43,525 nucleotides of DNA, taken from contig JAGCRH010000004.1 of NCBI GenBank assembly GCA_017964785.1, positions 1 to 43,525 on the forward strand, in the 5' to 3' direction. Shown one piece after another: positions 10,414-41,761 of the stretch. Position numbers and translations under genes: made by a program. This DNA comes from Prevotella sp. (lineage in GTDB: Bacteria > Bacteroidota > Bacteroidia > Bacteroidales > Bacteroidaceae). The notes under the pieces were generated by a model. That model saw only the letters and a list, made by a program, of their open reading frames with translations. It searched no databases and had not been told where the DNA came from. The number at the start of each line of letters is the position of its first letter. The first letter of the stretch is position 1.

Positions 10414-10453
10414 GACACACACTTCAAATTGTTCGTTTTCTTCTGTTTTTGGT

Positions 10454-12829: not shown

Positions 12830-12867
12830 TTTGAAAGGAGTCTTCGGATTATTTCTTTAATTGGAAA

Positions 12868-13491
12868 ATGAGTGATAGATTAACTATTTGTGCATGTCGC
12901 TGGCGTGGTTTGATTCCTCCGGAGAGAGTCGCCGACTTGGCTGAGCAAGCCCAAAGAGAGGGTCTTGAGGTGGAAATCATAGACGATTTGTGTGCGGTGA
13001 TGCAAGAAGGCGACGAGGCGACGATGAACCAGATTGGAGAAGGCAAGATTGCGGCCTGTCATGAACGGGCTATAAAGAGTCTGTTGGCTTGGCGAGGACT
13101 GCAAGCAAAAGAATTGATAAACCTTCGTGAGGGCTTCGGGCATCCAGGACCAGGCAATGATGCTTGGTACCCAACGATTGACAAGGATCGTTGTACGGAA
13201 TGTGGTAAATGCTTCGATTTTTGTCCGTTTGGCGTTTATGAGATGATAGATGACCGTGTGCGAGTGACACATCCTGCCAATTGTAAGAACAATTGTCCGG
13301 CCTGTGCACGCAACTGTCCCTCGGAGGCGATCATTTTCCCCAAATACGGACGAAGTCCCATTAATGGTGGCATGGAACAGGAAGAGAATGCTCTTCGGGT
13401 GGACCACTCGACACTTTATGCCGATGCCCTCAGGACGCGGCTGATGGAGAGACGAAACGCAGGAACACCCTTGTATAAGATAAAAAAGTAA
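12868..13491 (+). CDS. Dicluster [4Fe-4S] ferredoxin-like protein
   Basis: This 207-residue soluble protein has an N-terminal domain I do not recognise (about 1-95), with scattered cysteines (C8, C10, C42, C64), and a ferredoxin domain. C109, C112, C115 and C119 form one binding set; C139, C143, C146 and C150 form a second, spaced somewhat irregularly (NCKNNCPACARNCP). No signal peptide or membrane segment is visible, so it should be cytoplasmic. It starts 3 nt before the radical SAM gene and is the likely electron donor to that enzyme or to the DUF116 protein. Confidence 0.85.
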   Translation: MSDRLTICACRWRGLIPPERVADLAEQAQREGLEVEIIDDLCAVMQEGDEATMNQIGEGKIAACHERAIKSLLAWRGLQAKELINLREGFGHPGPGNDAWYPTIDKDRCTECGKCFDFCPFGVYEMIDDRVRVTHPANCKNNCPACARNCPSEAIIFPKYGRSPINGGMEQEENALRVDHSTLYADALRTRLMERRNAGTPLYKIKK

Positions 13492-13494
13492 AGG

Positions 13495-14712
13495 ATGGGA
13501 CTGAGTGACTATACATCTCTATTGAAGATTACTGGACGTGTGGTTCGTGGGACGACGCCCCGATTGCTGTGGAAATTCGTCAGGAACTTCGGATTGCGGA
13601 ATCTTTCGAACATGGCTGCTTTCGAACGCAGAATGCGAAAAGGTGAGCCGTTCTTCCCCGCCTTTATGATGATATCGGTGACAGAGGCCTGCAACTTGGC
13701 CTGCTCTGGCTGTTGGGTGACGAAAGGCGGCAAAAAGAGTCTGACACCTGAACAATTGGACGGTATCATCCGTCAGTCGAAGTCACAGGGTAGTTATTTC
13801 TTCGGAATCCTTGGCGGTGAACCACTGATGTATCACGGACTCTTCGAGGTGTTGGAGAAACATCCCGACTGTTATTTCCTGTTGTTTACCAATGCTACTC
13901 TCATTACACCTGAGTTGGCGCAGCGGATGAATAAGTTGGGTAGCGTGACGCCACTGATCAGTATCGAGGGCCTGCGCGACGAGAGTGACCGTCGGCGAGG
14001 AAAGGATGACGTGTATGAACGGACGTTGCGAGGACTGAGGGCCTGTCGTGATGCAAAACTGATCTTCGGTGTCGCTGCCAGTATCTGCAAGTCGAACTTT
14101 GACGAGTTGGTAAGTCGCAAGCATCTGGAGGACTTGGCCCATGAAGGGGCCGCCTTCATGTGGTATTATATCTATCGTCCTGTGGGGGCTGATGCCCATC
14201 CGGAAAATGCACTCAGTAAGGAACAGATACGGCAACTCAGGCAGTTCATCGTGGAACAGCGTCGTCAGGCGCCGCTCATCATCATCGATGTCTATTGGGG
14301 AGCCGACGGCAAGGCCATCTGTCCGGGAGCCACGGGTATGAGTCATCATATTTCGCCATCGGGCTATGTGGAGTTCTGTCCACCTCTGCAGATGGCAATG
14401 GAGCAGCTGAATGCCGATGGGAGTAATCTTGTGGAGATTTGTCGGAAGTCAGAGTTCTTGGCAGACCTGCGTAAGATGATTGCAGACACGACACGGGGGT
14501 GTATCTTGATGGAAGATCCAGAGAAACTGGCTGACTTCCTTGAGCAGCATGGTGGCTTCGAGACCACTTCTCGGGCTACGTTCATGGATGAACTGAAGCG
14601 GATGCACCATGTGCCTGGTCACGATATGAAAGATGAGGCTATTCCTGAGAAGAGTCCGCTCTACAGGATGCTACAGAAACGTTATTTCTTTGGATTCGGT
14701 GCTTATGGATAG
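13495..14712 (+). CDS. Radical SAM enzyme, possibly modifying a terpenoid
   Basis: This 405-residue enzyme has the radical SAM cluster motif CNLACSGC (C66, C70, C73), followed by the SAM-binding GGEPL motif. Later cysteines (AICPGA, EFCPPL and RGCILMEDP) resemble the auxiliary-cluster region of SPASM/twitch proteins. It overlaps the DUF116-prenyl synthase by 8 nt, and a squalene-hopene-cyclase-like gene lies three genes downstream. The known precedent for a radical SAM enzyme next to such a cyclase is HpnH, which adds adenosine to a hopene. A similar tailoring role is my inference; peptide or cofactor modification remains possible. Confidence 0.9.
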   Translation: MGLSDYTSLLKITGRVVRGTTPRLLWKFVRNFGLRNLSNMAAFERRMRKGEPFFPAFMMISVTEACNLACSGCWVTKGGKKSLTPEQLDGIIRQSKSQGSYFFGILGGEPLMYHGLFEVLEKHPDCYFLLFTNATLITPELAQRMNKLGSVTPLISIEGLRDESDRRRGKDDVYERTLRGLRACRDAKLIFGVAASICKSNFDELVSRKHLEDLAHEGAAFMWYYIYRPVGADAHPENALSKEQIRQLRQFIVEQRRQAPLIIIDVYWGADGKAICPGATGMSHHISPSGYVEFCPPLQMAMEQLNADGSNLVEICRKSEFLADLRKMIADTTRGCILMEDPEKLADFLEQHGGFETTSRATFMDELKRMHHVPGHDMKDEAIPEKSPLYRMLQKRYFFGFGAYG

Positions 14713-16216
14713 GGCAATTCCTACGACATATAAGGAGCGCACTCGGTTGCGGAAATTGGCGCACGACTTCGTGAGCGATAAGGCACTGCAACCGCCTGTG
14801 CCATTGAGCGACTTGGAGGCGTTGGCTTCTGAGTTCATCAAGGTGTACCAACTCGATGAGGGGCTGCGCGATTGGCTGATGGTGGAACTGCACAATGGAG
14901 TGTGGTTGCCTATGGTGGCGAGTATCCCTTACGAGCGCCGGTTGCTGTTGTTACCGAAATGTCTTCGTGACAGTCAACGTTGCGAGGGTGAGATGGATGA
15001 TCTGGGATTGCTCTGTCATCGTTGTGGACGCTGTGTCATTCCTGATCTGCAGACCTTGGCTGATCGTCATGGCGTACTCTCTCTGGTGGCGGAGGGCTTT
15101 ACTTCTGTCATCGAGTTGATCCGACAGCATGTGGTAGATGCCGTCATAGGTGTCAGTTGCCTCGACTCGTTGGAAAAGGCATTCCCATTGTTGGTCAGTC
15201 ATGCAGTACCAGGTATTGCCGTGGCTCTGAACGATGGGGGGTGCAAGGACACACATGTGGATATAGACTATGTGATGGAACTATTGCCGCAGTTAAGTGC
15301 GGAAACCATAACGCTCCTCGACTACGACGCTATCCGCGAAAAGGTAAATCAATGGTTTACCCCTGAGGCATTGGCTTGTGTAATGACACCTGCCACCGAC
15401 ATCACTACACGGGCTTCGTTGGAGTGGATGCTCTGTGGGGGAAGTCGTTGGCGACCGTTCCTTCTGGCTGCCGTCTATGCTGCTATCACCCGCTCGAGCT
15501 CTGCTTGCTTGCTACCGAAGGGACGCAAGAAACCGTGTCCGCTGGTATTGCCCGACGAGGTGATGCGGGCTGCCGTGGCAGTGGAGTGTTTCCACAAGGC
15601 CTCATTGGTACACGACGATATACAAGATCACGATCCTGAGCGGTATGGACAGCCCACTGTGCATATTCGCTATGGAGAGGCGATGGCCATCAATATCGGC
15701 GACCTACTGTTGGGCGAGGGCTACAGGCTACTTGCTTCGTTGAAGAACAAGGAATTGCAGGGCGTAGTAGCCAATGCGCATGTCAGCCTTTGCCTTGGAC
15801 AAGGGGCGGAGTTGGCATGGCGGTCTGGTCAGAAGGTGACCATCGACGAGGTGTTGCAGATCTTCCGCGAGAAGACGGTGCCGGCCTTTGAGGTGGCATT
15901 GTCGCTGGGTCTGCTCTCTGCAGGTGGTGATCAGCATACGGCACATGTGTTGCATAACTATTCTGAAGCCCTTGGCATTGCCTATCAGCTGAAGGACGAT
16001 TTAGCCGATATCTACCGTGAACAGACTGAGAAACCGTCGGCTGTGCATGCCATGAGAATGCAGTATCCCGATGCTTCGGATGAGGATATTAAGAACAAGG
16101 TGAATGTGCTGATCGAGGATTACCATACAAGAGCCCTCTCTTCGTTGGCCGAGATCGACTCCTTCGAGTTGAAGCGACTGCTCTTCCAGGCCACAGAGAA
16201 AATATTGGAAAGATAA
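14705..16216 (+). CDS. DUF116 domain fused to polyprenyl diphosphate synthase
   Basis: This 503-residue two-part protein starts at the ATG at 14705, overlapping the radical SAM stop; a longer in-frame version lies inside that gene. Residues about 1-210 look like DUF116, a cysteine-rich domain of unknown function (LLPKCLRDSQRC, CHRCGRCVIPDL, IGVSCLDSLEKAF, ALNDGGCKDTHVD). Residues about 230-503 form an all-helical trans-prenyl synthase with both aspartate motifs: DDIQD at 304-308 and DDLAD at 431-435. The residue five before the first motif is Ala rather than aromatic, which argues for a C20 or longer product. The synthase would supply substrate to the cyclase downstream. Fusion of these domains is unusual. 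Confidence 0.88.
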   Translation: MDRAIPTTYKERTRLRKLAHDFVSDKALQPPVPLSDLEALASEFIKVYQLDEGLRDWLMVELHNGVWLPMVASIPYERRLLLLPKCLRDSQRCEGEMDDLGLLCHRCGRCVIPDLQTLADRHGVLSLVAEGFTSVIELIRQHVVDAVIGVSCLDSLEKAFPLLVSHAVPGIAVALNDGGCKDTHVDIDYVMELLPQLSAETITLLDYDAIREKVNQWFTPEALACVMTPATDITTRASLEWMLCGGSRWRPFLLAAVYAAITRSSSACLLPKGRKKPCPLVLPDEVMRAAVAVECFHKASLVHDDIQDHDPERYGQPTVHIRYGEAMAINIGDLLLGEGYRLLASLKNKELQGVVANAHVSLCLGQGAELAWRSGQKVTIDEVLQIFREKTVPAFEVALSLGLLSAGGDQHTAHVLHNYSEALGIAYQLKDDLADIYREQTEKPSAVHAMRMQYPDASDEDIKNKVNVLIEDYHTRALSSLAEIDSFELKRLLFQATEKILER

Positions 16217-16226
16217 ACAAGTAAAG

Positions 16227-16949
16227 ATGGGAAAGTCGATATCGTATCATCTATTGCAGACGCTGAAGCGTGGGGCTGAGAGACTCAGTGATGAGGCTCG
16301 GCAACAGGTATGCCACTACGTCTTGAGCCAGCGCGATAAGAGCGAGGCTTTCATGAACCGTGGCAGACGGGTAGATCTTTACTATACTTTGTTCGGATGG
16401 ATGCTATGCTATGCACTGGGCATCAGTTCAGACGGCGTTCGAAGGAAAGCCTATTTGGCAGCCTTTGATATGTCCCGACTCAATGAACTCTACCAGACGG
16501 TGATGACGCTCTGCCAGATGCTCGACCGTCTGTTGTCGTTACCGCGCTTTACGCCAGATGCTGTCCTTCGGTTGATGGCTGATGACGAACCGCTACGCCG
16601 ATTCTTTGAGTCATATCAGCGGCATGGTAGCGGAGGAGGCACCAACGCATGGTCAGCCCGCTTGATGATGGTGGATGGAGGTGATGCTGTGCTTGTACAG
16701 CGACTGTTGGCTGTTCAGCATGAGTCTGGCGGATTTCTGGCTCATGAGAGTGCACCCATGCCCGATTTGTTGAGTACAGCAGTAGCGCTGTTCGCCCTCA
16801 GCCAACAGCACGTCAGTCTGCCATATGATGTGCATCCGTTTATTGAAGCCCATTGGCAGAAAGATGGTAGTTTTGTAGCCACTCTACTCGATGAATACGG
16901 TGATGTGGAATATGTGTTTTATGGATTATTGGCCATAGGGAGTATATGA
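16227..16949 (+). CDS. Small alpha/alpha-toroid (prenyltransferase/cyclase-like) protein
   Basis: This 240-residue protein has no signal peptide. The C-terminal half carries repeats like those of the squalene cyclase and protein-prenyltransferase beta fold (AVQHESGGFLAH, then HWQKDGSFVATL followed by DVEYVFYGLLAIG). I see no DXDD acid motif and no clear zinc ligands. It overlaps the larger cyclase by 4 nt. It may be a partner subunit that completes the toroid of that cyclase, or a separate prenyl-binding protein. Family assignment is moderate and activity unknown. Confidence 0.65.
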   Translation: MGKSISYHLLQTLKRGAERLSDEARQQVCHYVLSQRDKSEAFMNRGRRVDLYYTLFGWMLCYALGISSDGVRRKAYLAAFDMSRLNELYQTVMTLCQMLDRLLSLPRFTPDAVLRLMADDEPLRRFFESYQRHGSGGGTNAWSARLMMVDGGDAVLVQRLLAVQHESGGFLAHESAPMPDLLSTAVALFALSQQHVSLPYDVHPFIEAHWQKDGSFVATLLDEYGDVEYVFYGLLAIGSI

Positions 16950-18637
16950 CGACGAAGGAGAAGATAGAGGTGATGCTCAACGACGCGACGGAGCGGTTGC
17001 TATCGATGCGACGTGAGGACGGCATGTGGGAAGGCCATTTGTCGAGTTCCGCCATATCTACTTCTGTGTCGATATTCGCACTGAGTGTGATAGACCGTCA
17101 GGAGTATGCTCACGAAATACAGTGTGGCACCCGGTGGCTACTCGACACCATAAAACCTGAAGGGGCATGGGGTGACAGTGTGGAGAGTCCTGTGAATATG
17201 ACGGCAACACTCCTGTCGTACACGGCACTGACCCATCTCGGGCAAGTACCAGTGGCAACGGAAAAGTATATCCGAGAGACATTAGGTTGGCGCAACGAGG
17301 AGCAACTCGTAGAAGGTGTGCTCGGTTACTATGGGCGCGACCTGACTTTCTCTGTCCCTATTCTGATGATGTGTGCTTTGGCGGGCATTGTCAGCGACTG
17401 GAAACGTATCCCGCCATTCCCGTTTGAATTGGCAGTGCTGCCACAGAGTACGTTCCGTTTCCTGAATCTTCCAGTGGTCAGTTATGCCATACCTGCTCTT
17501 ATCGCAGTGGGCATCCTACAAAACCGTCGTCGCCACACATGGTTGACTGGCGTGCGTGAATGGTTCGTCCCGAAAGCCTTGCGAGTACTTACGAAGTTGC
17601 AGCCAGAAGATGGTGGTTTCTTGGAAGCGGCACCTCTGACGGCTTTTGTATCGATGTGCCTCGCGGAAGCGGGTCTGAAGGAACATCCTGTGACATTGGC
17701 CTGTGCCAGATTCCTGCGTCATACACTTCGTGAGGACGGCGCATGGCCCATCGATACCAATTTGGCTGGATGGGTGACGTCACTGAGTTGTCGGGCTCTC
17801 GGCAACCTGTTACCTGAGACCGAACGCAAGACTCTTGCCGATGTGATACGTTCAAATGCCACAACACAAAAACACCCGTTTACGGGAGCACCTAAAGGTG
17901 GTTGGGGATGGACGAACCTGAGCGGCAGTGTGCCTGATGGCGACGATACTTCAGGAGCACTTGTGGCTCTTCATACGCTGCTCGACGGACAGTATGTGCC
18001 TGAGGTAGGGGCTGGTATCGACTGGCTCATCCATCTACAGAATAGAGATGGTGGTATGCCCACCTTCTGCCGGGGATGGGGGAAACTGCCCTTCGACCGC
18101 AGTACGCCCGATATCACTGCCCATGCTATCTTGGCTATGAGTCTATGGGTCGAACACCTGCCGTCCGACCAGCAGTCCCGTTGCCAGAGAAGCATCGACC
18201 GTATGACAGCATGGATAAAAAAGACAATGTCGAAGGAGGGGGCGTGGATTCCCCTATGGTTTGGCGACCAGGATGCTTCCGACGAAAAGAATCCGGTCTA
18301 TGGTGCTGCCACCATCATAGACTATTTACAAACTGCGGGTATCCCAATGGAACCAGAGGCAAAGGATTTTTTGTTGTCGTGCCAGAATGCTGACGGAGGC
18401 TGGGGTGGTAACAAGGGTGTCGGTTCGAAGGTGACACTCACAGCCAAGGCTCTTTGTGCCCTCAGACATTATCAGACGGAATGCAACGAGGCTATCCGCC
18501 GAGGCGTAGATTATTTCTATGCTCAATTTGAAGCGGGAACGTTGTATCAGCGCGAGCCTATCGGTCTTTACTTCTCGAGACTCTGGTATTCGGAGCAACT
18601 CTATAACTACACTTATTTGATTCAAGCACTAAGGTAA
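16946..18637 (+). CDS. Class II terpene cyclase, squalene-hopene cyclase-like
   Basis: This 563-residue cyclase is built of alpha/alpha-toroid repeats with several QW-like motifs (REDGMWEGH, KPEGAWGD, REDGAWPID, QNRDGGMP, CQNADGGWGG). The catalytic acid motif DXDD is present as DGDD at 331-334 (SVPDGDDTSGAL), the position that protonates the substrate in squalene-hopene cyclases. It is shorter than typical SHC enzymes, which run above 600 residues. Neither squalene synthase nor hpnCDE genes lie in the window, so the substrate may be the linear prenyl diphosphate or alcohol from the preceding synthase. Membrane association is expected from the family but not visible. Confidence 0.88.
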   Translation: MTTKEKIEVMLNDATERLLSMRREDGMWEGHLSSSAISTSVSIFALSVIDRQEYAHEIQCGTRWLLDTIKPEGAWGDSVESPVNMTATLLSYTALTHLGQVPVATEKYIRETLGWRNEEQLVEGVLGYYGRDLTFSVPILMMCALAGIVSDWKRIPPFPFELAVLPQSTFRFLNLPVVSYAIPALIAVGILQNRRRHTWLTGVREWFVPKALRVLTKLQPEDGGFLEAAPLTAFVSMCLAEAGLKEHPVTLACARFLRHTLREDGAWPIDTNLAGWVTSLSCRALGNLLPETERKTLADVIRSNATTQKHPFTGAPKGGWGWTNLSGSVPDGDDTSGALVALHTLLDGQYVPEVGAGIDWLIHLQNRDGGMPTFCRGWGKLPFDRSTPDITAHAILAMSLWVEHLPSDQQSRCQRSIDRMTAWIKKTMSKEGAWIPLWFGDQDASDEKNPVYGAATIIDYLQTAGIPMEPEAKDFLLSCQNADGGWGGNKGVGSKVTLTAKALCALRHYQTECNEAIRRGVDYFYAQFEAGTLYQREPIGLYFSRLWYSEQLYNYTYLIQALR

Positions 18638-18647
18638 AAAGTAAAAT

Positions 18648-20072
18648 ATGAATAAAACCAGAACTATTACCCTCGCCACCGTTGCCCTGTGGACGGCAGT
18701 CCTCATAGGTTGGCATTGGTATGATCCCAGTGGGGGATTCACCAAGTTTGTGCCTGGTGCCGACAAGCGTCCACCAGGCAGTGAGCGCAAGGCTGACGAT
18801 GTAGTAATAGGTGAGTTTTTTATGAAAGGCAATGCCTCTGCCAGTGAGGGACTGATTGACAGTTGGCCCGGCTTCCGTGGTCCTGACCGTTCGAATATCG
18901 TAAACCATGCCTCGCCTATCCGGCTTGCTGAGGGCGATTTCAAGGAACTCTGGTCGATAGAGACGGGCGAAGGTCATGCGGCACCAGCAGTATGGCGGGG
19001 GCGTGTCTATGTGCTCGACTACAACGAGCAGTTGTCGAGTGATGCACTGCGCTGCCTCGATCTCAAGACGGGCGAGGAACTGTGGCGACGCTGGTATCGC
19101 GTCCCGATGAAGCGTAACCACGGATTCAGCCGTACCATCCCTGCAATTACTGCAGATGGACGGGTGGTCACCATCGGACCAGAAGGACACGTGATGTGCT
19201 GCAACGGTGAGACAGGCGACCTGTTATGGACGATGGATTTGAAGAAACGTTTTTCAACCGAGGTTCCCTTCTGGTATGCAGGACAGTGTCCTCTTATTAT
19301 GGGTGATGAACTTGTCTTGGCACCTGCGGGTACAGACACGCTGATGGTAGGACTCGACGTGGCGACAGGTCATGTGCGGTGGGCAACTCCCAATGAAAAG
19401 AAATTGAAGATGTCGCACTCGTCGGTGATGCCGATGACCTTAGGTGGCAAGCCGACTTTAGTCTATGCGGGTATTGGAGGTGTCTGTGGTGTTTCGGCAG
19501 AGGGAAGCGACAAGGGTAAGATGCTCTGGTTTGCCGATGCTTGGCAACCTTCGGTCATTGCGCCGTCTCCCTTACAACTGAGTAGCAATCAGATCTTCCT
19601 CGTGGCGGGCTATGGTGCCGGCGGTGGACTGCTACAGGTAAACCCTTCGGGAGGAGGTTGGCAGGCAAAAGTCGTCGATCAGTACAAGGCTGACAAGGGC
19701 ATGAGTAGTGAACAGCAGACGCCCGTCCTTTATAAGGGTAGTATCATCACGATTCTGCCTAAGGATGGTGGCGGTATGCGTGAACGTATCAGCATCTATC
19801 AGCCTTCAGACCTGCATCGTGCCGTATGGAACTCTGCCAGCGATGAGCGTTTTGGACTGGGGCCCTATCTGATTATCGACGGCAGACTCTTTGCATTGAA
19901 AGAAGATGGGCAATTGTTTGTCTATGAGATCGGTGAGCGGCAGATGAAACTTCTGCGCAAGCAGACGGTTATTGAGGACGGAGCCGATGCCTGGGGACCG
20001 ATGGCCTATGCCGACGGCATGCTCATGCTGAGGGATGCCAAGAATGTGAAATGCTTTAGGATTAGTGAGTAG
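18648..20072 (+). CDS. Membrane-anchored PQQ-like beta-propeller protein
   Basis: This 474-residue protein has one N-terminal membrane segment (about 7-23), which should place the rest in the periplasm. The body is a PQQ/BamB-like propeller with repeats such as GRVYVLDYN, CLDLKTGEELWRRW and CNGETGDLLWTMDL. It includes the WPGFRGPDRSN sequence that often opens such domains. No quinoprotein dehydrogenase active-site loop is recognisable, so it may be a scaffold or binding protein instead of a PQQ enzyme. It is one of five propellers in the cluster. Confidence 0.88.
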   Translation: MNKTRTITLATVALWTAVLIGWHWYDPSGGFTKFVPGADKRPPGSERKADDVVIGEFFMKGNASASEGLIDSWPGFRGPDRSNIVNHASPIRLAEGDFKELWSIETGEGHAAPAVWRGRVYVLDYNEQLSSDALRCLDLKTGEELWRRWYRVPMKRNHGFSRTIPAITADGRVVTIGPEGHVMCCNGETGDLLWTMDLKKRFSTEVPFWYAGQCPLIMGDELVLAPAGTDTLMVGLDVATGHVRWATPNEKKLKMSHSSVMPMTLGGKPTLVYAGIGGVCGVSAEGSDKGKMLWFADAWQPSVIAPSPLQLSSNQIFLVAGYGAGGGLLQVNPSGGGWQAKVVDQYKADKGMSSEQQTPVLYKGSIITILPKDGGGMRERISIYQPSDLHRAVWNSASDERFGLGPYLIIDGRLFALKEDGQLFVYEIGERQMKLLRKQTVIEDGADAWGPMAYADGMLMLRDAKNVKCFRISE

Positions 20073-20106
20073 TTAAGAAGTTAGGAAGTTAAGTAGTTAA
20101 GGAATT
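20067..20106 (+). repeat. Octamer tandem repeat between propeller genes
   Basis: Five degenerate 8-nt units (consensus AAGAAGTT) run from the last codons of one propeller gene to the ATG of the next, filling the whole junction. Changes in copy number would alter spacing before the Tat-signal propeller gene. Confidence 0.8.
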
Positions 20107-21141
20107 ATGGAACAGGAGAAGAAGACGATGACGCGGCGCAGGTTTCTGCAGGTGGGAGGCTCACTGGCTTTGGGTGCGGTCTTTATGGGAATCATGGGAC
20201 GCAGCGTATGGAAAATGTTGACTAATCCAGCGGACATCTTCTACGATGCCAAGGGGACTAAGCGTACGAAGGATGCTTTAGAGCGGGCGCAGTTTGTGTC
20301 GCCATACCGTCGCACGTTCGGTTTTATGACTCCCGACGAGATTGTTGCGCTAGAACTGATGAATAACCAGATTGTAGTAGCCACACCTAATTATATATAT
20401 ATATATGGTATAGATGGTGATCTGAAAGAGAATATCTCCGTTCGCAGCGACGTACGTGATATGGCGGTGTATGATGGACGACTCTATCTGCTCTTCCCGT
20501 CGCGCATAGAGGTGTATAGTGGTTTCTCCGACATTCACGAAGAAACCATCATCGAGGCCTGTAGCGACGATGCCGACTACTGTTCAATAACGGTGTTTGA
20601 AGGTGGCATTTTCGTCACTGATGCCAGTGCCAAGAATATCTGTCAGTATCACCTCGACGGTTCGTTGGCACGGTTCATCAAGAGTCCCAATGGATTCGTG
20701 GTGCCCAGTTATTCGTTTGGCATTACGAACATGGATGGGCGTGTGTTCTGCTCGAATCCCGGTCGGCACCTCGTGGAGCAATATACGGCTGAAGGAGAGT
20801 ATGTCGGCTCCTTCGGGAAGTCTGGTGCCGGGGCAGGGGAGTTTAGTGGCTGTTGTAATCCTGTGCAGATTACCACGACGGCGGCTGGTGAATTATTGAC
20901 AAGCGAGAAGGGACTGCCCCGCATCAGTTGTTATGGTGCTGACGGCACGTTCCGTAGTATTCTGCTTGATGACAAGGCACTTGGCGGTGGTCATGCCGCC
21001 TATGATGTTTGTGTGATGGATGACAAACTCATCGTCACGGGAGGAAAGAAGGTGTCGGTATTCCAGTATGATGATCGCCGCTCGGCTCAGACACTTTGTG
21101 GTGCATGTACGGTTGATTGTCCGATAAAGGTAAAAGCATAA
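20107..21141 (+). CDS. Tat-signal beta-propeller (NHL-like) with C-terminal cysteine tail
   Basis: This 344-residue exported protein begins with a twin-arginine motif, TRRRFLQVGG, followed by a hydrophobic stretch that may stay as an anchor because no clear AxA site is seen. The body consists of propeller-like repeats (GRLYLLFPSRIEVYSG, GIFVTDASAKNI, GEYVGSFGKSGAGAGEFSG) typical of NHL proteins. The last 20 residues hold CGACTVDCP, half of a ferredoxin motif. Tat export implies folding, and perhaps cofactor loading, in the cytoplasm. The iron-sulfur partner gene follows 11 nt later. Confidence 0.85.
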   Translation: MEQEKKTMTRRRFLQVGGSLALGAVFMGIMGRSVWKMLTNPADIFYDAKGTKRTKDALERAQFVSPYRRTFGFMTPDEIVALELMNNQIVVATPNYIYIYGIDGDLKENISVRSDVRDMAVYDGRLYLLFPSRIEVYSGFSDIHEETIIEACSDDADYCSITVFEGGIFVTDASAKNICQYHLDGSLARFIKSPNGFVVPSYSFGITNMDGRVFCSNPGRHLVEQYTAEGEYVGSFGKSGAGAGEFSGCCNPVQITTTAAGELLTSEKGLPRISCYGADGTFRSILLDDKALGGGHAAYDVCVMDDKLIVTGGKKVSVFQYDDRRSAQTLCGACTVDCPIKVKA

Positions 21142-21152
21142 TAAAGGTAAAG

Positions 21153-24730: not shown

Positions 24731-24733
24731 AGG

Positions 24734-27124: not shown

Positions 27125-28073
27125 TAATACGATAGAAGTGAACGGCATGCGTCCTCTCATCGAGGAACTGCGTGAGGTGGGCATCCAAGTACCGTCAATG
27201 TGCTATGCTGAGAGTTATGAGCATCACCCGTCGTGTATGGTCTGCATGGTGAAGGATGTCAAGACGGGGCAGATGATACCTTCCTGTTCAACAAAACCCT
27301 ACGAGGGGATGCAGATAGAGACCGATACTGATGAGGTGAAGGATTTGCGCCGTCTTTCTCTCGAACTTCTGTTGAGTGACCATCGTGCCGACTGTGAGGC
27401 ACCTTGTACGATGGTGTGTCTGCGCGGTATTGATGTGGCTGGTGTCATCCGTCTCTATGATATGGGAAAGATGGACGAGGCCCGAAAGTTGTTGCATAAT
27501 GTATTGTGCGATGATTGTAAGGCTCCATGTGAAAAAGCCTGTCGGCGCGTGACGGTGGATGAGGGTGTCAAGATCCGTGAGATATTAAAAGAAGTTGCTT
27601 TTAGTTCTAAGGGTGATGTGCCCACATCATCTCAGGCTCCCGAACAGTGGAAGGAAACAGGAGGTGAAGTTCTTTTCAACAGTCGCCTGGGTCGTTTTAC
27701 TGACAGAGAGAAACAACGCATGAAAGAGATATACACCCAGCCAAGTCGTTGCCTGCATTGTGCCTGTGACGGCAAGGCTGATTGTAAGTTGCGCTCCCTT
27801 TCCACCAAAGCCGGTATCAAGGTCACTCGTTACGGAGTACAATCATCATTACCTATCAAGGAAGAGATTCCTGTCACGGGGCGTCTGGTCTATGAACCTG
27901 CCAAGTGTATTCGTTGCGGTCTCTGTGTCTATAATACACAGGATGGTTTCACTTTTGAACGTCGTGGCTTCGATATGCGGGTAGTGATTCCAGAGGAGAG
28001 CAAGAAACATGTCAGTGAACAGATTGCCAGACTCTGTCCTACGGGGGCGTTGACATTGAAGATTGAACATTGA
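27105..28073 (+). CDS. NuoG-like iron-sulfur protein lacking the molybdopterin domain
   Basis: This 322-residue electron carrier opens with a plant-type [2Fe-2S] ferredoxin domain (cysteines in VPSMCYAE, PSCMVCMV and PSCSTKP). A helical cysteine-rich segment follows (HRADCEAPCTMVC and CDDCKAPCEKACR), closer to the N-terminal domain of GltD/dihydropyrimidine dehydrogenase than to standard NuoG. The C-terminus has ferredoxin-like sets (CLHCACDGKADC, KCIRCGLC, ARLCPTGAL). It overlaps the NuoEF gene by 20 nt. It probably carries electrons from the flavoprotein onwards, for instance to the NapH-like membrane protein. Confidence 0.88.
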   Translation: MRISVNNNTIEVNGMRPLIEELREVGIQVPSMCYAESYEHHPSCMVCMVKDVKTGQMIPSCSTKPYEGMQIETDTDEVKDLRRLSLELLLSDHRADCEAPCTMVCLRGIDVAGVIRLYDMGKMDEARKLLHNVLCDDCKAPCEKACRRVTVDEGVKIREILKEVAFSSKGDVPTSSQAPEQWKETGGEVLFNSRLGRFTDREKQRMKEIYTQPSRCLHCACDGKADCKLRSLSTKAGIKVTRYGVQSSLPIKEEIPVTGRLVYEPAKCIRCGLCVYNTQDGFTFERRGFDMRVVIPEESKKHVSEQIARLCPTGALTLKIEH

Positions 28074-28085
28074 AGATTGAAGATT
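28058..28085 (+). repeat. Heptamer tandem repeat at a gene junction
   Basis: Four 7-nt units (GAAGATT, GAACATT, GAAGATT, GAAGATT) span the stop codon of the NuoG-like gene at 28071-28073 and the space before the next ATG. A change of one unit would alter the end of the upstream protein and the spacing to the lipoprotein gene. Confidence 0.85.
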
Positions 28086-28094
28086 GAAATATTA

Positions 28095-29195
28095 ATGGTG
28101 AAACACTTTATATATATATGTGTGGTGGTTCTGATACTAACAGGTTGCCGTGCTTTGCCTGAAGGAACAGGGACAAATGCCGAACTGCCTGAGCATCCAC
28201 AGTTGCTGTGGGAGCATCGTCACAATGTGAGAACTGTGGCATCACCTTTGGCTTACAACGGCATGATTCTCTTTTGTGATAAGCACGGGGAGATGAGAGG
28301 CTTGGATACGGACACTGGCGAGGAACAACTCAGTCTTTCGCTGGGGTCAGATATGGAGGCATCATTTACGATTGAAGATTCCACTCTCTATGTCGGTATG
28401 ATTGACGGACAAGTCCGTTCACTTTCATTGACTGATGGTTCGGAACAATGGAGTTATGAGACTGAGGGGCAGATTGCTGCCACTCCAGTGTTGACTACCA
28501 TCAACGGACAGCGGCGTCTCTTCGTGGGCAGTTATGATAATTACATGTACACCCTTTCTCCCCAGACAGGAAAACTGATTCATCGTGTGGAGACAGGTTA
28601 CTACATCAATGGCACCGTTGCCCTTTGGCAGCATTATGCCATCTTCGGCGGTTGTGATGCATGGGTACGTATTGTAGATGGCGCAACAGGTGAATCAACG
28701 GACTCACTGAAACTTGATGCCTATATCCCAGCCTCACCGGTAGTCGTTGGTGATAATGCTTACGTTGCCGACTATCGTGGTGATATCTATGAACTGACTT
28801 TTTCTGATGGGCGTATTGTCAGCCATCGGAAGTTGTTGACAGCATCAGATGATGACGGTGGAATGCTTTCTGTGCCTGTGGTCACTGATGATGCTGTATT
28901 CCTGTTGACACCTAATCGCCGTTTGGTATGTCTGAGTCGTAAGGACGGACAAGAGAAATGGCATGTAGCCCTCAAAGGCGAAACAGGGGAAAGTTCACCA
29001 GTATTGGTTGATGAGCGTCTGTTGGTATGTACTAAGACGGGTGTTGTTACGATTCACGATGCCACAACAGGACAACAACTCTGGGAATATGAGACTGGTG
29101 AGCAGATTATTGCTCAGCCAGTTGTTGGTGAGGATCGCTTTTACATACAGACGGCGCGTGGCACATTGTTGTGTTTTGGAGAGAAGGAAAGATGA
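28095..29195 (+). CDS. PQQ-like beta-propeller lipoprotein
   Basis: This 366-residue lipoprotein has a short signal peptide ending in LTGC (Cys18), so the propeller should be periplasmic or outer-membrane tethered. Repeats such as GLDTDTGEEQLS, SLTDGSEQWSYE, IVDGATGEST and IHDATTGQQLWEYETG mark a BamB/PQQ-like fold. An upstream in-frame TTG at 28077 would weaken the signal peptide, so I chose the ATG at 28095. It follows the NuoG-like gene by 21 nt and precedes the ABC transporter. Confidence 0.87.
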   Translation: MVKHFIYICVVVLILTGCRALPEGTGTNAELPEHPQLLWEHRHNVRTVASPLAYNGMILFCDKHGEMRGLDTDTGEEQLSLSLGSDMEASFTIEDSTLYVGMIDGQVRSLSLTDGSEQWSYETEGQIAATPVLTTINGQRRLFVGSYDNYMYTLSPQTGKLIHRVETGYYINGTVALWQHYAIFGGCDAWVRIVDGATGESTDSLKLDAYIPASPVVVGDNAYVADYRGDIYELTFSDGRIVSHRKLLTASDDDGGMLSVPVVTDDAVFLLTPNRRLVCLSRKDGQEKWHVALKGETGESSPVLVDERLLVCTKTGVVTIHDATTGQQLWEYETGEQIIAQPVVGEDRFYIQTARGTLLCFGEKER

Positions 29196-29213
29196 AAGTA
29201 AAAAAGGTGAGCA

Positions 29214-29900
29214 ATGGCATACATCGAATTAAACAACATACAAAAAAGCTTTGCCGATGGTAGTGGTGGCATGCGAAAGGTCTTAGATGGTCTTAACCTG
29301 AAGGTTGAGCAAGGAGACTTTGTAGCAGTGACGGGTGTGTCTGGAACTGGCAAGACCACATTACTGAATATCCTTGGAACGCTGTTACAGCCTGATGGTG
29401 GTAGTTATCTGTTAGATGGGGAGTGCATACCTTACGAAGATGAGCAGCGGTTGCTTCAACTGCGTAACCAGCGGATTGGCTTTATGTTTCAGGACTATCG
29501 TCTGTTGCCCCAACTGACGGCGTGGCAGAATATCCTGTTGCCAACCTTGGCAGTTCGTGAAAACCCGACGGCGGAAGATACAGCCTGGTCCGAAGAACTC
29601 ACCCAGAAGATGAATATTGATAGTGTCAGGCAACAACTGCCCGAGACACTCTCTGGTGGTGAAAAGAGTCGAGTGGCTTTATGCCGTGCTCTTATCATGC
29701 GACCCAAATTACTGTTGGCCGACGAACCGACAGGACAGTTGGATAGTCAGCATGCTGATGAGGTGGCACAACTGCTGAAAGATGTAAACCGTGAGTTGGG
29801 AACCACCATCGTTGTCGTGACCCACTCTGAGAAGTTGGCGAGGTATGCCCATCGCATCTACGAACTAAAAAACGGCTCAATAATGCATTCTGAATTATAG
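29214..29900 (+). CDS. ABC transporter ATP-binding protein, LolD/MacB type
   Basis: This 228-residue ATPase has the Walker A motif GVSGTGKTT, signature LSGGEKSRVALCRAL and Walker B LLLADEPTGQLDS, with the Q-loop in FMFQDYRLLPQ. The ADEPTG form and length fit the LolD/MacB/FtsE group, which power mechanotransmission permeases instead of membrane-crossing pores. It lies 3 nt before its permease. The cargo could be a lipoprotein, the cluster's terpenoid, or a signal to the envelope. Confidence 0.94.
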   Translation: MAYIELNNIQKSFADGSGGMRKVLDGLNLKVEQGDFVAVTGVSGTGKTTLLNILGTLLQPDGGSYLLDGECIPYEDEQRLLQLRNQRIGFMFQDYRLLPQLTAWQNILLPTLAVRENPTAEDTAWSEELTQKMNIDSVRQQLPETLSGGEKSRVALCRALIMRPKLLLADEPTGQLDSQHADEVAQLLKDVNRELGTTIVVVTHSEKLARYAHRIYELKNGSIMHSEL

Positions 29901-29903
29901 ATA

Positions 29904-32729
29904 ATGAATTCTCAGAGTCGCTCATATTATATAAAGTTCTATCGGCTTGTCGCTGTGGCGGTAGCCGTGATGACTGCTGTACTGACGGGTAGCCTTGTCT
30001 TAGGCGATTCTGTACGCGGATCATTGTCAGAACGTGTCAATGAGCGATTAGGAAATACAGAGACGCTGATACAGACGGGAACAGGGTTCCTTAGTGATTC
30101 CATCCTAAACAATTCTATATTATCAAATGCCAAAGGTTATCTATTGGCGGAAGGTTTTATTTCTTCTAACGGACAGATGATCCCTGTTACCGTATGGGGA
30201 ACAGATAACGATTCACTCAAACAAGGAGAAGCCCTCATCAATGAAGAATTATTGGACGAGTCAGGCGGCAAAGTCGAACGAGGAATGAAGAATGAAGAAT
30301 CAAGAATTGTTCTTCATCTGCCTTCGAACAATCTTGTTGGTTCTGGTTCACTGTTCATCTCGCAGAGTTATGCCACTCAATTACGGCTTTCTGTCAAAGG
30401 TGTCAAGACAGGACAGGATGGGGGCAACTTGCTTCTTCACAACGAACAAGTACGTCCACTCAATGTTTTCATGAACCGGCAGGAATTGGCTGAGGCACTG
30501 GGCGTAAAGGGAAAAGTGAATGTCATTCTATCGCCAGATCATATCTATCAGGATCAATTTAGAAGCATCTGGCGACCAGAAGATTCCGGATTACAAGTGC
30601 ATGACAGTATAGTAGGTACAGACCGCGTGTTCCTGTCCCAGGCTGTTGTTGACTCGCTGCACCCCACAGCCCGTTATCTGGCCTATTTTGTAAATAGTAT
30701 GGGCAACATACCTTATTCATTCGTGACGGCGACAGACCAGTTGCATGGCGACGAGACCATCCTGACAGAGTATGCCGCCAAGCGGATGAATGTCCATGTG
30801 GGTGACTCTGTCATGATGGAATATTATGTGTCTCATGGTGGTTTGAAACAACTGGAGACGCGAAGACACTTTTTCCGTGTGAGTCGCATCGTGCCCATCA
30901 GTGAGATTCAGGGACAGGCAGAACTGTTGTCTGCAGACTTCCCTGGTTTATCAGGCGTCAATCGTTGTACCGATTGGGATAGTGACTTGCCTATTGACAT
31001 GAGTCGTATCACTAAAGCTGACGAAGATTATTGGACTAAGTATCGGCAGACGCCAAAGGCCCTTGTCAGTCTCGATGCTGTCAGTAAGGATTGGATAGGC
31101 TCCTATGGCGTGGCCACGAAGATAGTGGTCAATAGAGGGAACTCCCTCCACCTTCAACCTTCCACCTTTAACCTTACACTTATTCAACCTCGTGAGGCAG
31201 CCCTTCGTGCAGCACAAAACGGTACGGACTTTGGCATGCTGTTCCTTGCCTTGGGTTTCTTTATCATCCTTGCAGCCATTCTGTTGATGCAGAATCCTTT
31301 ATCAGAGATGTACCAGTTGCGCCGTCCGGAGATTCAACTCTTCAGTGTGATGGGTTTCAGCAAGCGTAAGGTGTTTAACCGCCTGTTTACCGAGGCACTG
31401 CCAGTTGTGTTGATAGCCTCACCCATAGGTGTACTGTTGGGATATGCCTATGCTGCCGTTATCCTTTGGCTGTTGGCTGGTCCGTGGAGTGGAGCAACGC
31501 ATACCGATGGGTTCGCTTTGCATGCCAATCTCTTAACGGTAATTGTGGCATGTGGCATCAGCATCCTTTTATCAATAGTTGTGCTCTGGCTGACCATCAA
31601 GGCTGTTTTCAGACAGCCCAAATCCCAGATTGCCAAGCCCCAAGCAGCCTCGTTGCTACGTGCTTCCCTCAATTACTACAGGCATCAGCATCGGCTTTCA
31701 TTTTGGACATTGGCCTTGGGTGTTTTCATCGTGTTTGCCGTTGGCCTGAACCGTCCGGATTTCAGGCATTCCTCCGAGGCGGTGACTGGTGGCTATCAGT
31801 TCTATGGCGAGAGTCGCATCCCCATCCAGTACGATATGAATACGGTTGCAGGCCGTCGCCATCTGCATCTGGATGACCTGCCTGCCGGAACTCGTTTCCT
31901 CCAACTGCCTAAGCATACGGAGGATGAGGCCAGTTGTCTGAACTTGAATAAGGTAGAGACACCTTCGGTATTAGGGATGTCTCTTGAGGATATGAAGGCT
32001 TTTGGTATATCTGTCGATTCCGAGGAAAGAGAAGGAGTTGTACCTATATTTATTGACGAGGAGGCACTTCTATGGAGTATGATGAAGCAGGTTGGTGACA
32101 CCTTAACCTATCATACCAGTGATGGTAGGGAAGTGAAGGCTGTCATTGCCGCCTCTTATCCCACAGGCATCTTCCATGGGAACGCCATTATGCCCATGGA
32201 ACGTTTCCGGCAACTCTGGCCTGACGAGATGGGGAGTCGCATCATATTGGGCAACAATGCTGAAATCGCAACGCCGCTCTCTGACTATGGTGTTGTTATC
32301 ACCTCTACAGTTGATCGTTTGAGACTTTTTTTCGAGGTCACGGATACTTATCTCAATATCTTCCTCTCCCTCGGAGGTTTGGGACTGTTGCTCGGTTTGG
32401 TCAGTCTGCTGATAGTGATTCGCAAGAACCTGACGGCCCGGCGAGACGAGATCCGACTCTATCATACCCTCGGCTTCCCTACGAGATCAGTTGTCAACAT
32501 CCTGCGTCGCGAACAGATCATCGTTCCTCTCATGGCCATTCTGGCCGGAGCTGTGGGTTGTCTGGTCATCTCCTTCCTCCTGCGTTGGAGAGGATTCTCA
32601 CTCCCCGGTATCACCGACTCGGCCTGGCTTACTGCCATTGTCCTCTTTCTGTTGATGTTGGCTTTCACATGGATGATAATTCACATTAGTATAAACTCAA
32701 AAACAATTAAACAATGCGAAACTATTTAA
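29904..32729 (+). CDS. FtsX/MacB-like ABC transporter permease
   Basis: This 941-residue inner-membrane permease begins with one membrane helix (about 12-33), then a large periplasmic domain (about 35-440), a central group of helices (about 445-625), a second periplasmic domain and three closing helices (about 820-940). This is the duplicated layout of large FtsX-family permeases with two FtsX cores. It overlaps the next propeller gene by 16 nt. Two short tandem repeats lie in its coding sequence (30283-30303 and 31148-31175), possible slippage sites. Confidence 0.9.
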   Translation: MNSQSRSYYIKFYRLVAVAVAVMTAVLTGSLVLGDSVRGSLSERVNERLGNTETLIQTGTGFLSDSILNNSILSNAKGYLLAEGFISSNGQMIPVTVWGTDNDSLKQGEALINEELLDESGGKVERGMKNEESRIVLHLPSNNLVGSGSLFISQSYATQLRLSVKGVKTGQDGGNLLLHNEQVRPLNVFMNRQELAEALGVKGKVNVILSPDHIYQDQFRSIWRPEDSGLQVHDSIVGTDRVFLSQAVVDSLHPTARYLAYFVNSMGNIPYSFVTATDQLHGDETILTEYAAKRMNVHVGDSVMMEYYVSHGGLKQLETRRHFFRVSRIVPISEIQGQAELLSADFPGLSGVNRCTDWDSDLPIDMSRITKADEDYWTKYRQTPKALVSLDAVSKDWIGSYGVATKIVVNRGNSLHLQPSTFNLTLIQPREAALRAAQNGTDFGMLFLALGFFIILAAILLMQNPLSEMYQLRRPEIQLFSVMGFSKRKVFNRLFTEALPVVLIASPIGVLLGYAYAAVILWLLAGPWSGATHTDGFALHANLLTVIVACGISILLSIVVLWLTIKAVFRQPKSQIAKPQAASLLRASLNYYRHQHRLSFWTLALGVFIVFAVGLNRPDFRHSSEAVTGGYQFYGESRIPIQYDMNTVAGRRHLHLDDLPAGTRFLQLPKHTEDEASCLNLNKVETPSVLGMSLEDMKAFGISVDSEEREGVVPIFIDEEALLWSMMKQVGDTLTYHTSDGREVKAVIAASYPTGIFHGNAIMPMERFRQLWPDEMGSRIILGNNAEIATPLSDYGVVITSTVDRLRLFFEVTDTYLNIFLSLGGLGLLLGLVSLLIVIRKNLTARRDEIRLYHTLGFPTRSVVNILRREQIIVPLMAILAGAVGCLVISFLLRWRGFSLPGITDSAWLTAIVLFLLMLAFTWMIIHISINSKTIKQCETI
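30283..30303 (+). repeat. Heptamer repeat inside the permease gene
   Basis: Three 7-nt units (GAATGAA, GAATGAA, GAATCAA) encode part of a hydrophilic stretch, MKNEESR, in the first periplasmic domain. Three units keep the frame (21 nt); gain or loss of one would break it. Confidence 0.8.
31148..31175 (+). repeat. Second heptamer repeat inside the permease gene
   Basis: Four 7-nt units (CCACCTT, CAACCTT, CCACCTT, TAACCTT) encode the sequence around LHLQPSTFNLT just before the central membrane helices. Loss or gain of a single unit shifts the reading frame. Confidence 0.8.
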
Positions 32730-34000
32730 TTTTTGCGATGTTTGCAGTCTGTGCCTGCACATCGACGGCTCAGACGCCGACAGATTTTACTAAGGGTACC
32801 AGTGTCAATGGCTGGCGTGGCCCTCAGAACAATGGTACTTATCCTGACACTGGTCTGCTTAACGAATGGCCTGCTGATGGACCTCAGAAAATCTTCGAGG
32901 TCGAGGATGCTGGCAAGGGCTATTCCAGTGCCCAGGTGGTGGGTGACCGTATCTACCTGACGGGTCTCAATGATCAGGAAGATAAGGAGATGCTCAGTTG
33001 CTATAACCTTGACGGCACGAAGGTCTATGCCGTGGAATATGGCAGCCATTGGAACGGATCCTATCCCGAGGTTCGTACAACAGCCACATTCAGTGATGGA
33101 TGTCTCTATGTCATCAGTGGCATGGGTGAGATTGTTTGTATCAATGCTGCCGACGGTAAAATCCTATGGACGGTAGATGGTGGTTCTAAGTATGGTCGCA
33201 AGACGGGCAACTGGGGTACCAGCGAGTGCCCGCTGGTCTATGATGACAAGGTGGTTTATACCCCCTGTGGTGACCAGACGACCATCGTGGCCCTCAACAA
33301 GTTCACTGGTGAAGAGGTTTGGAAGAGTCGTGCTCTAGGTGACAAGAGTGGCTATGTCAGTCCCATCCTTATTGAGTACAAAGGCAAGCGCCAGATTATC
33401 GGTTCTACATCGCTCAACGTGTTTGGTGCCAATCCGGAGACGGGCGAGATTGAGTGGACCTTTGACGACTGGGGCCCCCGTCACTATGGCAACTCCAGCC
33501 GTTGGGACAATATCGCTCCCAACTCGGCTCTCTATCGCGACGGCAAGTTCTTCTTCTGTCACGGCTACGATATCAATGGTTTCCAACTGCAGTTGGCCGA
33601 CGACTTGAAGAGTGTCAAACTGGTGTGGCGCACTGAGACCCTCGACACCCATCACGGCGGTTATGTGCTTGTGGGCGACAATATCTATGGTTCCAACTGG
33701 ATCAACAACAATGCAGGCAACTGGTGCTGCATCGACTGGAACACAGGCGAGACGAAGTACGAGACTGCCTGGCAGGGCAAGGGAAAGGGCTCTATCATTA
33801 CCGCCGACGGCAAACTCTTCTGTTATGACGAGCGTCGTGGCACGGTGGGCTTGGTAAAGGCAGATCCCTCGAAGTTTGAGGTGACAAGCGAATTCCGCAT
33901 CACCAAGGGCAGCGGTCCATATTGGGCTCACCCCACCATCAGTAATGGCGTGCTTTATGTCCGTCACGCAGGCGCTTTCTATGCCTACAAAATCAAATAG
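32714..34000 (+). CDS. Secreted PQQ-like beta-propeller protein
   Basis: This 428-residue exported protein has a signal peptide (MRNYLIFAMFAVCACTSTAQ) cleaved after the TAQ-like ending; lipidation at one of the two cysteines is possible but the lipobox is poor. It opens with NGWRGPQNNGTYPDTG, the WRGP-type start of PQQ-like propellers, followed by repeats such as CINAADGKILWTVDGG, ALNKFTGEEVWKSR and CIDWNTGETKYE. It is the fifth propeller of the cluster and overlaps the permease by 16 nt, suggesting co-expression with the transporter. Confidence 0.88.
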   Translation: MRNYLIFAMFAVCACTSTAQTPTDFTKGTSVNGWRGPQNNGTYPDTGLLNEWPADGPQKIFEVEDAGKGYSSAQVVGDRIYLTGLNDQEDKEMLSCYNLDGTKVYAVEYGSHWNGSYPEVRTTATFSDGCLYVISGMGEIVCINAADGKILWTVDGGSKYGRKTGNWGTSECPLVYDDKVVYTPCGDQTTIVALNKFTGEEVWKSRALGDKSGYVSPILIEYKGKRQIIGSTSLNVFGANPETGEIEWTFDDWGPRHYGNSSRWDNIAPNSALYRDGKFFFCHGYDINGFQLQLADDLKSVKLVWRTETLDTHHGGYVLVGDNIYGSNWINNNAGNWCCIDWNTGETKYETAWQGKGKGSIITADGKLFCYDERRGTVGLVKADPSKFEVTSEFRITKGSGPYWAHPTISNGVLYVRHAGAFYAYKIK

Positions 34001-41722: not shown

Positions 41723-41761
41723 AATGCTTATTTTAATATATGTTAGTGTTTGAATATATAA

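Follow-up and report, generated by a model that had tools for sequence, protein, structure and literature searches.

Enzymes of the Bfu family are described, in the accessible sections of PMC9304861, as built on a BfuBC core with six clusters; ferredoxin is one of their reactants, and their non-bifurcating homologues do not have the clusters B2-B5. A fusion of DUF116 with a polyprenyl synthetase has been described in Pirellula staleyi (Psta_0175), and the accessible part of PMC5898192 proposes a role in electron transfer for it. Relatives of both were found in a single run of genes in 43,525 nucleotides (nt) of Prevotella sp. DNA (GCA_017964785.1, contig JAGCRH010000004.1), the whole of which is called the window below. 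The run joins a redox cassette with a Bfu-type NADH core to a terpenoid cassette with a DUF116-prenyl synthase and a class II cyclase. The terpenoid cassette sits almost only in those genomes of the order Bacteroidales that are positive for the redox cassette, in some of them with the two cassettes unlinked. Our tentative explanation, to which we give somewhat less than an even chance, is that the two modules act together, a cyclised prenyl lipid serving an envelope-linked Bfu complex that can also run without the lipid.

The list of open reading frames (ORFs) placed 16 genes in positions 12868..34000, all on the + strand; no gap exceeds 34 nt, and several of the genes overlap. Aquaporin, CobW, WYL and SBF genes follow at gaps no larger than 20 nt and carry the run on to 37819. 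The window is contig C146 of a draft assembly (G000) of 2.9 Mb that is 81% complete. Comparison of genomes resolved two modules within the run: a redox cassette, consisting of the propellers, polyferredoxin, NapH-like protein, fused BfuC-BfuB core, BfuA and an ABC/FtsX pair, and a terpenoid cassette, consisting of ferredoxin, radical SAM enzyme, DUF116-prenyl synthase, toroid protein, DxDD cyclase and sometimes CobW. The genes are:

12868..13491, + strand: ferredoxin, 2x[4Fe-4S] with an N-terminal cysteine (Cys) domain (Pfam Fer4)
13495..14712, + strand: radical SAM enzyme with further C-terminal Cys (Pfam Radical_SAM, 69.5 bits)
14633..16216, + strand: DUF116 fused to polyprenyl diphosphate synthase (Pfam DUF116, 110 bits; polyprenyl_synt, 140 bits)
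16227..16949, + strand: small alpha-toroid protein lacking DxDD (Prenyltrans toroid at 22.6 bits, under the Pfam cut-off; 14-row alignment)
16946..18637, + strand: class II (DxDD) terpene cyclase, squalene-hopene cyclase-like (Pfam SQHop_cyclase N and C domains)
18648..20072, + strand: propeller 1, PQQ_2 type (Pfam)
20107..21141, + strand: propeller-like protein 2, weak NHL-type match
21117..21728, + strand: polyferredoxin with twin-arginine leader (Pfam Fer4 families)
21721..22962, + strand: NapH-like polytopic membrane iron-sulfur (Fe-S) protein (Fer4_5; TIGR02163, 55.8 bits; Cys and hydrophobic segments)
22955..24730, + strand: membrane-anchored propeller 3 (PQQ_2, 132 bits; three N-terminal hydrophobic segments)
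24734..27124, + strand: BfuC-BfuB fusion (NuoE, NuoF and Fe-S), NADH/flavin core (Pfam; PDB match NfnB)
27105..28073, + strand: BfuA, a NuoG-N-like Fe-S subunit without NAD(P)H/FAD domain (alignment to NfnA)
28077..29195, + strand: propeller 4, ACSF4/PQQ propeller, putative lipoprotein by eye
29214..29900, + strand: LolD-like ABC ATPase (ABC_tran; NCBIfam LolD 192.7 bits, below the cut-off of 307.75)
29904..32729, + strand: FtsX-like permease (PF02687, 67.9 bits)
32714..34000, + strand: propeller 5 (PQQ_2, 81 bits)
34864..35964, + strand: CobW-type GTPase (PF02492)

The preliminary description, made from the sequence alone, had reported 15 genes, one fewer than the list holds, with its gaps and overlaps correctly given; every gene type that it claimed for this interval was recovered, on the + strand, from ORFs, Pfam and NCBIfam. 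Four of its five propellers are clear, and the protein at 20107-21141 is a propeller by weak matches only, none of them at 0.001 in Pfam. It made no mention of the CobW gene. Its statement that no terminal reductase, cytochrome or hydrogenase gene is visible agrees with the Pfam scan, in which no such domain was present among the genes scanned, and it had seen the NuoEF- and NuoG-like proteins but missed their likeness to the electron-bifurcating Bfu family.

By sequence the NADH module is closest to the Bfu type. The best PDB match of the BfuC-BfuB fusion was NfnB (9n5u, E 3e-201), followed by 9bov and HydB chains. Its BfuC part carries the signature of a protein with one [2Fe-2S] cluster (2Fe-2S_thioredx, 152 bits), with C92, C97, C134 and C138 in 21/21 rows of the alignment; here and for the polyferredoxin, the NapH-like protein and propellers 2 and 3, rows outside 0.7-1.4 of the median length were left out. 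The NuoF-like FMN/NAD(H) subunit is represented by Complex1_51K (145 bits) and NADH_4Fe-4S (112 bits), and residues 189-792 match NfnB. The N- and C-terminal cluster Cys of BfuB align with those of NfnB and are kept in the 21 rows, most of them in 100%; with our own assignment of these Cys to B2-B5, the B2-B5 clusters of BfuB are predicted to be present.

BfuA departs from the described enzymes. The 322 amino acids (aa) of the window's protein align to NfnA 11-189 and 581-702, and the region of about 190-580 has no counterpart, so that the NAD(P)H/FAD domain by which the Nfn-Bfu (type 1) class is recognised is missing. Complete BfuA genes in the stretches checked fell into 13 of 507-541 aa and nine, including the window's, of 319-366 aa. 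Pyr_redox_2 scored above the cut-off in all three long proteins scanned and was absent from the short protein of locus L069. Short forms occur in the window's clade and in L072 and L086; as the latter two lie elsewhere in the tree of propeller 3, more than one origin of the short form is probable. With no NAD(P)H domain in the window's BfuA, the third partner of the core should not be NADP(H), and we infer that it is the membrane and exported Fe-S chain instead.

A search for NuoEF at 1e-40 in 11 genomes found it in eight; there was no match in G404, G405 or G398, in the last of which the cluster contig ends in propeller 3. A second, partial NuoEF homologue with 52% identity lies at G396:C22:2-1168 (L038); this genome is that of L006, a Prevotella metagenome-assembled genome (MAG) from goat abomasum.

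The putative outward chain is also conserved. In the polyferredoxin, 16 Cys are present in all 26 rows, C87 in 96%, and R25, R26 and F28 in at least 90%; the protein likely carries four [4Fe-4S] clusters, and its start is probably ATG 21153. The NapH-like protein misses the curated NapH/MauN cut-off (TIGR02163, 213 bits). Propeller 2 has a conserved GCCNP and, by eye, a twin-arginine leader; a C-terminal Cys motif was found in 10/29 rows, all from the window's clade. The start of propeller 4 is probably ATG 28095. The recurrent order of the redox cassette is propeller 5 (1-4 copies), propeller 1, propeller 2, polyferredoxin, NapH, propeller 3, NuoEF, BfuA, propeller 4, ABC and FtsX, often with a glycosyltransferase between propeller 4 and ABC (one scanned). 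The fetched redox regions are not all complete, and a gene may be absent from them through a contig end, a missed ORF or a real loss, with no distinction made between these. No membrane subunit of complex I, Rnf or Nqr matched above cut-off in Pfam or NCBIfam among the cluster genes scanned. An [FeFe] hydrogenase or formate dehydrogenase was considered as terminal enzyme and rejected, such domains being missing from the cluster (Pfam).

The terpenoid cassette looks catalytically intact, judging from its conserved motifs. Alignments of its ferredoxin, radical SAM enzyme and DUF116-prenyl synthase, from which rows of 80 bits or less were left out, retained the eight ferredoxin Cys in 23/23 rows (C8, C10 and C42 in 91%, C64 in 96%) and C66, C70 and C73 plus C126, C276, C295 and C336 of the radical SAM enzyme in 21/21 rows. 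The DUF116 match lies far above the Pfam cut-off of 25 bits, and seven Cys of this domain are present in 24/24 synthase rows. In the prenyl synthase at least 95% of the 24 rows retain the first aspartate (Asp)-rich motif together with the two leading Asp of the second, and both motifs are invariant across a 13-row alignment. By the usual rule, small residues ahead of the first motif may point to a product of about C20. The true start of the gene is probably ATG 14705, near which its homologues begin; the 80-nt overlap with the preceding gene is therefore a probable start-codon artefact. The DxDD motif of the cyclase is present in 27/27 homologues.

Squalene/phytoene synthase (SQS_PSY, PF00494) had no match in 16/24 terpenoid genomes, among them the window's 81% complete assembly and three genomes of at least 98% completeness (G607, G515 and G504). 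It scored above the cut-off in 7/24; the match in G737 was below the cut-off and overlapped the prenyl synthase gene itself. Because the enzyme was unmatched in 16 of these genomes, squalene is probably not the cyclase substrate, which would more probably be a linear polyprenyl diphosphate or a derivative of it. Hopanoid synthesis with HpnH-type tailoring was rejected on the same ground and on the score of the radical SAM enzyme, for which the top NCBIfam model was NirJ2 (77.5 bits) and HpnH gave 43.1 bits, all below their cut-offs. A precursor of a ribosomally synthesised and post-translationally modified peptide as target of this enzyme was also rejected, since gaps of at most 34 nt leave little space within the cassette. 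Relatives of CobW were found in 8/34 terpenoid stretches (L014, L015, L093-L095, L100, L156 and L157) and in 0/26 redox-only stretches; with the window's own, nine genomes have CobW together with the terpenoid cassette.

The nearest named relatives of the window's DUF116-prenyl synthase come from MAGs of Prevotella, Prevotellaceae and Bacteroidaceae, most of them from ruminants. A contig search with this protein gave 24 loci, 11 of which match most of the fusion: nine loci of Bacteroidales MAGs and two of Acidobacteriota. In 8/9 of the named Bacteroidales loci, most from ruminants, the order ferredoxin, radical SAM, DUF116-prenyl synthase, toroid, cyclase, propeller 1, propeller 2, polyferredoxin, NapH, propeller 3 is kept, in some cases with further genes; the ninth, L012, stops inside the cyclase gene. 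This recurrence indicates that the arrangement is not due to chance. The expectation of the preliminary description that terpenoid and redox genes stay together in other genomes was supported by neighbourhood comparison. Its further claim of one system holds as far as the two are joined in other genomes, but they are divisible: 40/54 redox-positive genomes have no cyclase, and the acidobacterial terpenoid loci have no redox cassette beside them. With the DUF116-prenyl synthase also in 0/22 of the redox-only genomes tested, a single indivisible operon was rejected.

The acidobacterial loci show the terpenoid cassette on its own. L014 and L015 carry genes for CobW, ferredoxin, DUF116-prenyl synthase, toroid and cyclase in this order; a relative of the radical SAM enzyme is encoded close by on the opposite strand, and the flanks hold no redox genes. 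A search of 199 Acidobacteriota genomes gave three carriers, of which G926 (L156) and G820 (L157) were newly found; their order, CobW, ferredoxin, radical SAM, DUF116-prenyl synthase, toroid and cyclase, is the cassette order of the window. Single propeller-like matches (26-27% identity) lie near L156 and L157, but no redox cassette. Upstream of the CobW-terpenoid cassette, at L014:5839-7785 and L015:5663-7770, are aminotransferase-class-V (cysteine-desulfurase-like) and GcvH-like lipoyl-carrier genes; neither kind was present among the window genes scanned.

Association of the two cassettes was quantified in 344 genomes from 194 genera of Bacteroidales, with propeller 3 as the marker of the redox cassette. 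The marker was present in 54/344 genomes and 38/194 genera, the cyclase family in 16/344 genomes and the DUF116-prenyl synthase in all 16 of these. Redox-positive were 14/16 cyclase genomes versus 40/328 others (Fisher p = 1e-10). By genus, all 12 terpenoid genera fell within the 38 redox genera (Fisher p = 6e-10) and, by family, all 12 terpenoid families within 33 redox families of about 119, a total inferred from labels. The cassettes are adjacent in 7/16 genomes (G000, G428, G540, G567, G607, G659 and G737) and apart in the stretches fetched from G504, G515, G599 and G669; a fifth non-adjacent genome, G569, has no redox match. Adjacency is unsettled in G421, G463, G729 and G731, where contigs are short or split. 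The association holds also where the cassettes sit on different contigs. In G567 (82% complete) the cyclase lies beside two propeller 5 genes and a propeller 1 gene, with a weak NapH match and no propeller 3 match. In G515, two propeller 1-like genes (25-26% identity; the one scanned is a PQQ_2 propeller) lie at L141:730-3331, upstream of the unlinked terpenoid cassette. In a search of 395 genomes from the phylum, in which the listed ones came almost entirely from outside the order and the redox cassette was not sought, the cyclase at 1e-60 was found only in the window's assembly.

As a control, squalene/phytoene synthase was counted in 117 genomes, one per family: it was present in 10/19 redox-positive genomes versus 29/98 others (p = 0.06), and the terpenoid cassette in 5/19 versus 0/98 (p = 7e-5). 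The redox-positive share of carriers was 5/5 for the terpenoid cassette and 10/39 for the control. On the propeller 3 tree, built from 42 of the 54 positive genomes plus 7 named MAGs, the terpenoid label requires 9 changes (gains or losses), at least 7 of them forced by starred branches; shuffled labels gave a mean of 15.9, so that the label is also clustered. One genome of the terpenoid-linked clade of this tree, G644 (L042/L071; 68% complete), shows NapH, propeller 3 and NuoEF alone in the stretch read; it has no match to the cyclase or the DUF116-prenyl synthase, and loss of the terpenoid genes is not proven.

How the modules might act together can be outlined as follows. Gene content, conserved motifs, the loss of the BfuA domain, the separability of the modules and their co-occurrence are observed, whereas the electron path, substrate, tailoring chemistry and role of the lipid are what we infer from them. 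For the Bfu-type core, a NuoE-NuoF fusion with a NuoG-N-like BfuA, the partners in electron exchange would be NADH, probably ferredoxin and, in place of NADP(H), the NapH-like membrane protein. This protein would pass electrons to the exported polyferredoxin, which several propellers would hold outside the inner membrane. The DUF116-fused synthase would build a linear polyprenyl diphosphate, and this or a derivative, not squalene, would be protonated and cyclised by the DxDD enzyme. Ferredoxin, radical SAM enzyme and DUF116 domain would then tailor the cyclic product, reductively or by radical chemistry, with CobW perhaps supplying a metal. The lipid would most likely lie in or around the envelope complex as a lipid cofactor, anchor or membrane modifier, and the link would be an accessory one, the redox complex working without lipid in many species. 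In a bolder version, which seems to us distinctly improbable, the terpenoid, once cyclised and tailored by radical chemistry, would be a lipid-soluble redox carrier or cofactor of a new kind, other than a quinone, and would link a bifurcating NADH/ferredoxin core with the exported Fe-S/propeller apparatus; were it true, part of the Bacteroidales would use an as yet undescribed lipid for electron exchange with the envelope.

Several observations weigh against joint action. The redox cassette occurs without the cyclase in 40/54 genomes, and four acidobacterial loci have the terpenoid cassette without an adjoining redox cassette. G569, which is 97% complete, has the full terpenoid cassette and no propeller 3 or NapH match; in the Acidobacteriota G404 and G405 the cassette is present with no match to NuoEF at 1e-40 or to NapH at 1e-5, and G926 and G820 have distant NapH-like matches only (30-32% identity). 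Distances of cyclase and propeller 3 are uncorrelated among nine distant genomes (Mantel r 0.13, p 0.28), and the overall distance correlation of 0.95 therefore comes from the linked clade. In the unrooted cyclase tree G421 and G729 join the Acidobacteriota (100/97). A root on the acidobacterial branch, which is possible, would give a single entry of the cyclase into the order followed by losses, and co-occurrence is therefore not a count of independent events. An earlier conclusion that the terpenoid cassette had entered the order twice was withdrawn, since the unrooted tree allows a single entry. Shared ancestry may explain part of the association, and so may habitat, as hinted by the weak control result.

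The alternative that survives best builds on these points, and we consider it somewhat unlikely: the modules would share a habitat or ancestor without serving each other, the terpenoid being a membrane-modifying or exported lipid and the redox module a separate respiration-like device, the two having been joined into one transcription unit in some lineages for co-regulation. Each module is indeed found alone, G569 has the terpenoid genes without the redox genes, the control lipid gene is itself weakly associated with redox genomes, and the cyclase tree permits one entry. An association far above that of the control (5/5 versus 10/39 carriers), persisting with the cassettes on different contigs, argues for joint action instead.

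It is unlikely that the NADH module, instead of bifurcating, is an ordinary NADH dehydrogenase with the NapH-like protein as its route to quinone and the propellers as assembly factors. NapH proteins are quinol-linked electron carriers and BfuA in the window has no NAD(P)H site, as this reading would have it, but the exported polyferredoxin points outward. Moreover, the non-bifurcating homologues are without B2-B5 in the accessible sections of PMC9304861, yet the extra cluster Cys are kept here in nearly all rows. Quite unlikely, finally, is the reverse dependence, in which terpenoid tailoring, at its radical SAM, DUF116 and ferredoxin steps, draws reduced ferredoxin or other low-potential electrons from the Bfu core: the terpenoid cassette has its own ferredoxin and Fe-S enzymes, ferredoxin is a Bfu reactant (PMC9304861, accessible sections) and within the order nearly every genome with the terpenoid cassette is redox-positive, but the redox cassette is mostly without cyclase, its membrane and exported parts would be superfluous for such a role, and G569, G404 and G405 have no NapH match.

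Other features of these genomes were recorded. Contigs C81 (L089, 6576 bp) and C85 (L090, 4201 bp) of the window's assembly hold a divergent second copy of parts of both modules, with 58-76% identity, which is either a second cluster or a strain mixture. AraC-type regulators at 181-1110 and 9508-10458, both on the - strand, border a block of genes that by eye look glycan-degrading and signalling. A large BspA-type leucine-rich repeat protein (LRR_5), with a C-terminus that is dockerin-like by eye, is encoded at 39863-41887 on the - strand. A scan of 12500-32400 gave 30 promoter-like signals versus 19.8 expected (standard deviation 4.3) and 16 terminator-like signals versus 15.2, and was uninformative. 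Eight cassette neighbours scanned were an outer-membrane barrel, an FGE-sulfatase-like protein, a histidine kinase, a LytTR regulator, cyclophilin, PheS, a DEAD helicase and an ArsP permease; they are ordinary or regulatory in look and were dropped as hints to function.

Taken singly, the protein families are known ones. Two things were not found in the literature searched: a Bfu variant whose genes adjoin those of a NapH-like protein, a polyferredoxin and propellers, and the combination of this variant with a terpenoid cassette of the DUF116 type. Searches on the redox cassette and on terpenoids of rumen Prevotella gave nothing on point, including in the accessible parts of PMC8841776, PMC8303584 and PMC12954380, and a Bfu form that a NapH-like protein and an exported polyferredoxin connect to the envelope was found neither there nor in the accessible PMC9304861, the main text of which does not mention NapH, propellers, the periplasm or a Tat signal. 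Bfu enzymes of anaerobes couple NADH, ferredoxin and a third partner, and propeller 3 of the putative envelope-wired form reaches 38/194 genera. If the modules act together, both a lipid and a bioenergetic complex of anaerobic bacteria, those of the rumen included, are opened to testing at the same time.

The closest described system is Nfn-Bfu (NfnABC; PDB 9n5u, 9bov). The window shares with it the core of NuoE, NuoF and extra Fe-S parts with conserved cluster Cys, and the ends of its BfuA match NfnA on either side of the missing domain. It differs in the fusion of BfuC and BfuB, in the loss of the NAD(P)H/FAD domain from BfuA and in the joining of these genes to NapH-like, polyferredoxin and propeller genes. 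NapGH and NosR-type ferredoxin pairs likewise place a polytopic Fer4_5 protein beside an exported Fe-S protein; however, the window's NapH-like protein scores 55.8 bits against a cut-off of 213 and has an extra C-terminal ferredoxin domain, and no nitrate or N2O reductase was present among the window genes scanned. With squalene-hopene and other class II terpene cyclases the window's cyclase shares the SQHop N and C domains and the DxDD found in all homologues examined. It differs from squalene-hopene cyclase in its score with the hopene cyclase model (75.7 bits, where the cut-off is 431), in the unmatched squalene/phytoene synthase of 16/24 carrier genomes and in its occurrence, within the order, in the same 16 genomes as the DUF116-prenyl synthase; the cassette suggests ring-closed prenyl lipids in bacteria with no detected squalene synthase. 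For Psta_0175 of Pirellula staleyi, which has the same fusion, no cyclase, radical SAM or redox cassette partner is named in the accessible part of PMC5898192, and the terpenoid cassette described here gives DUF116 a concrete pathway setting.

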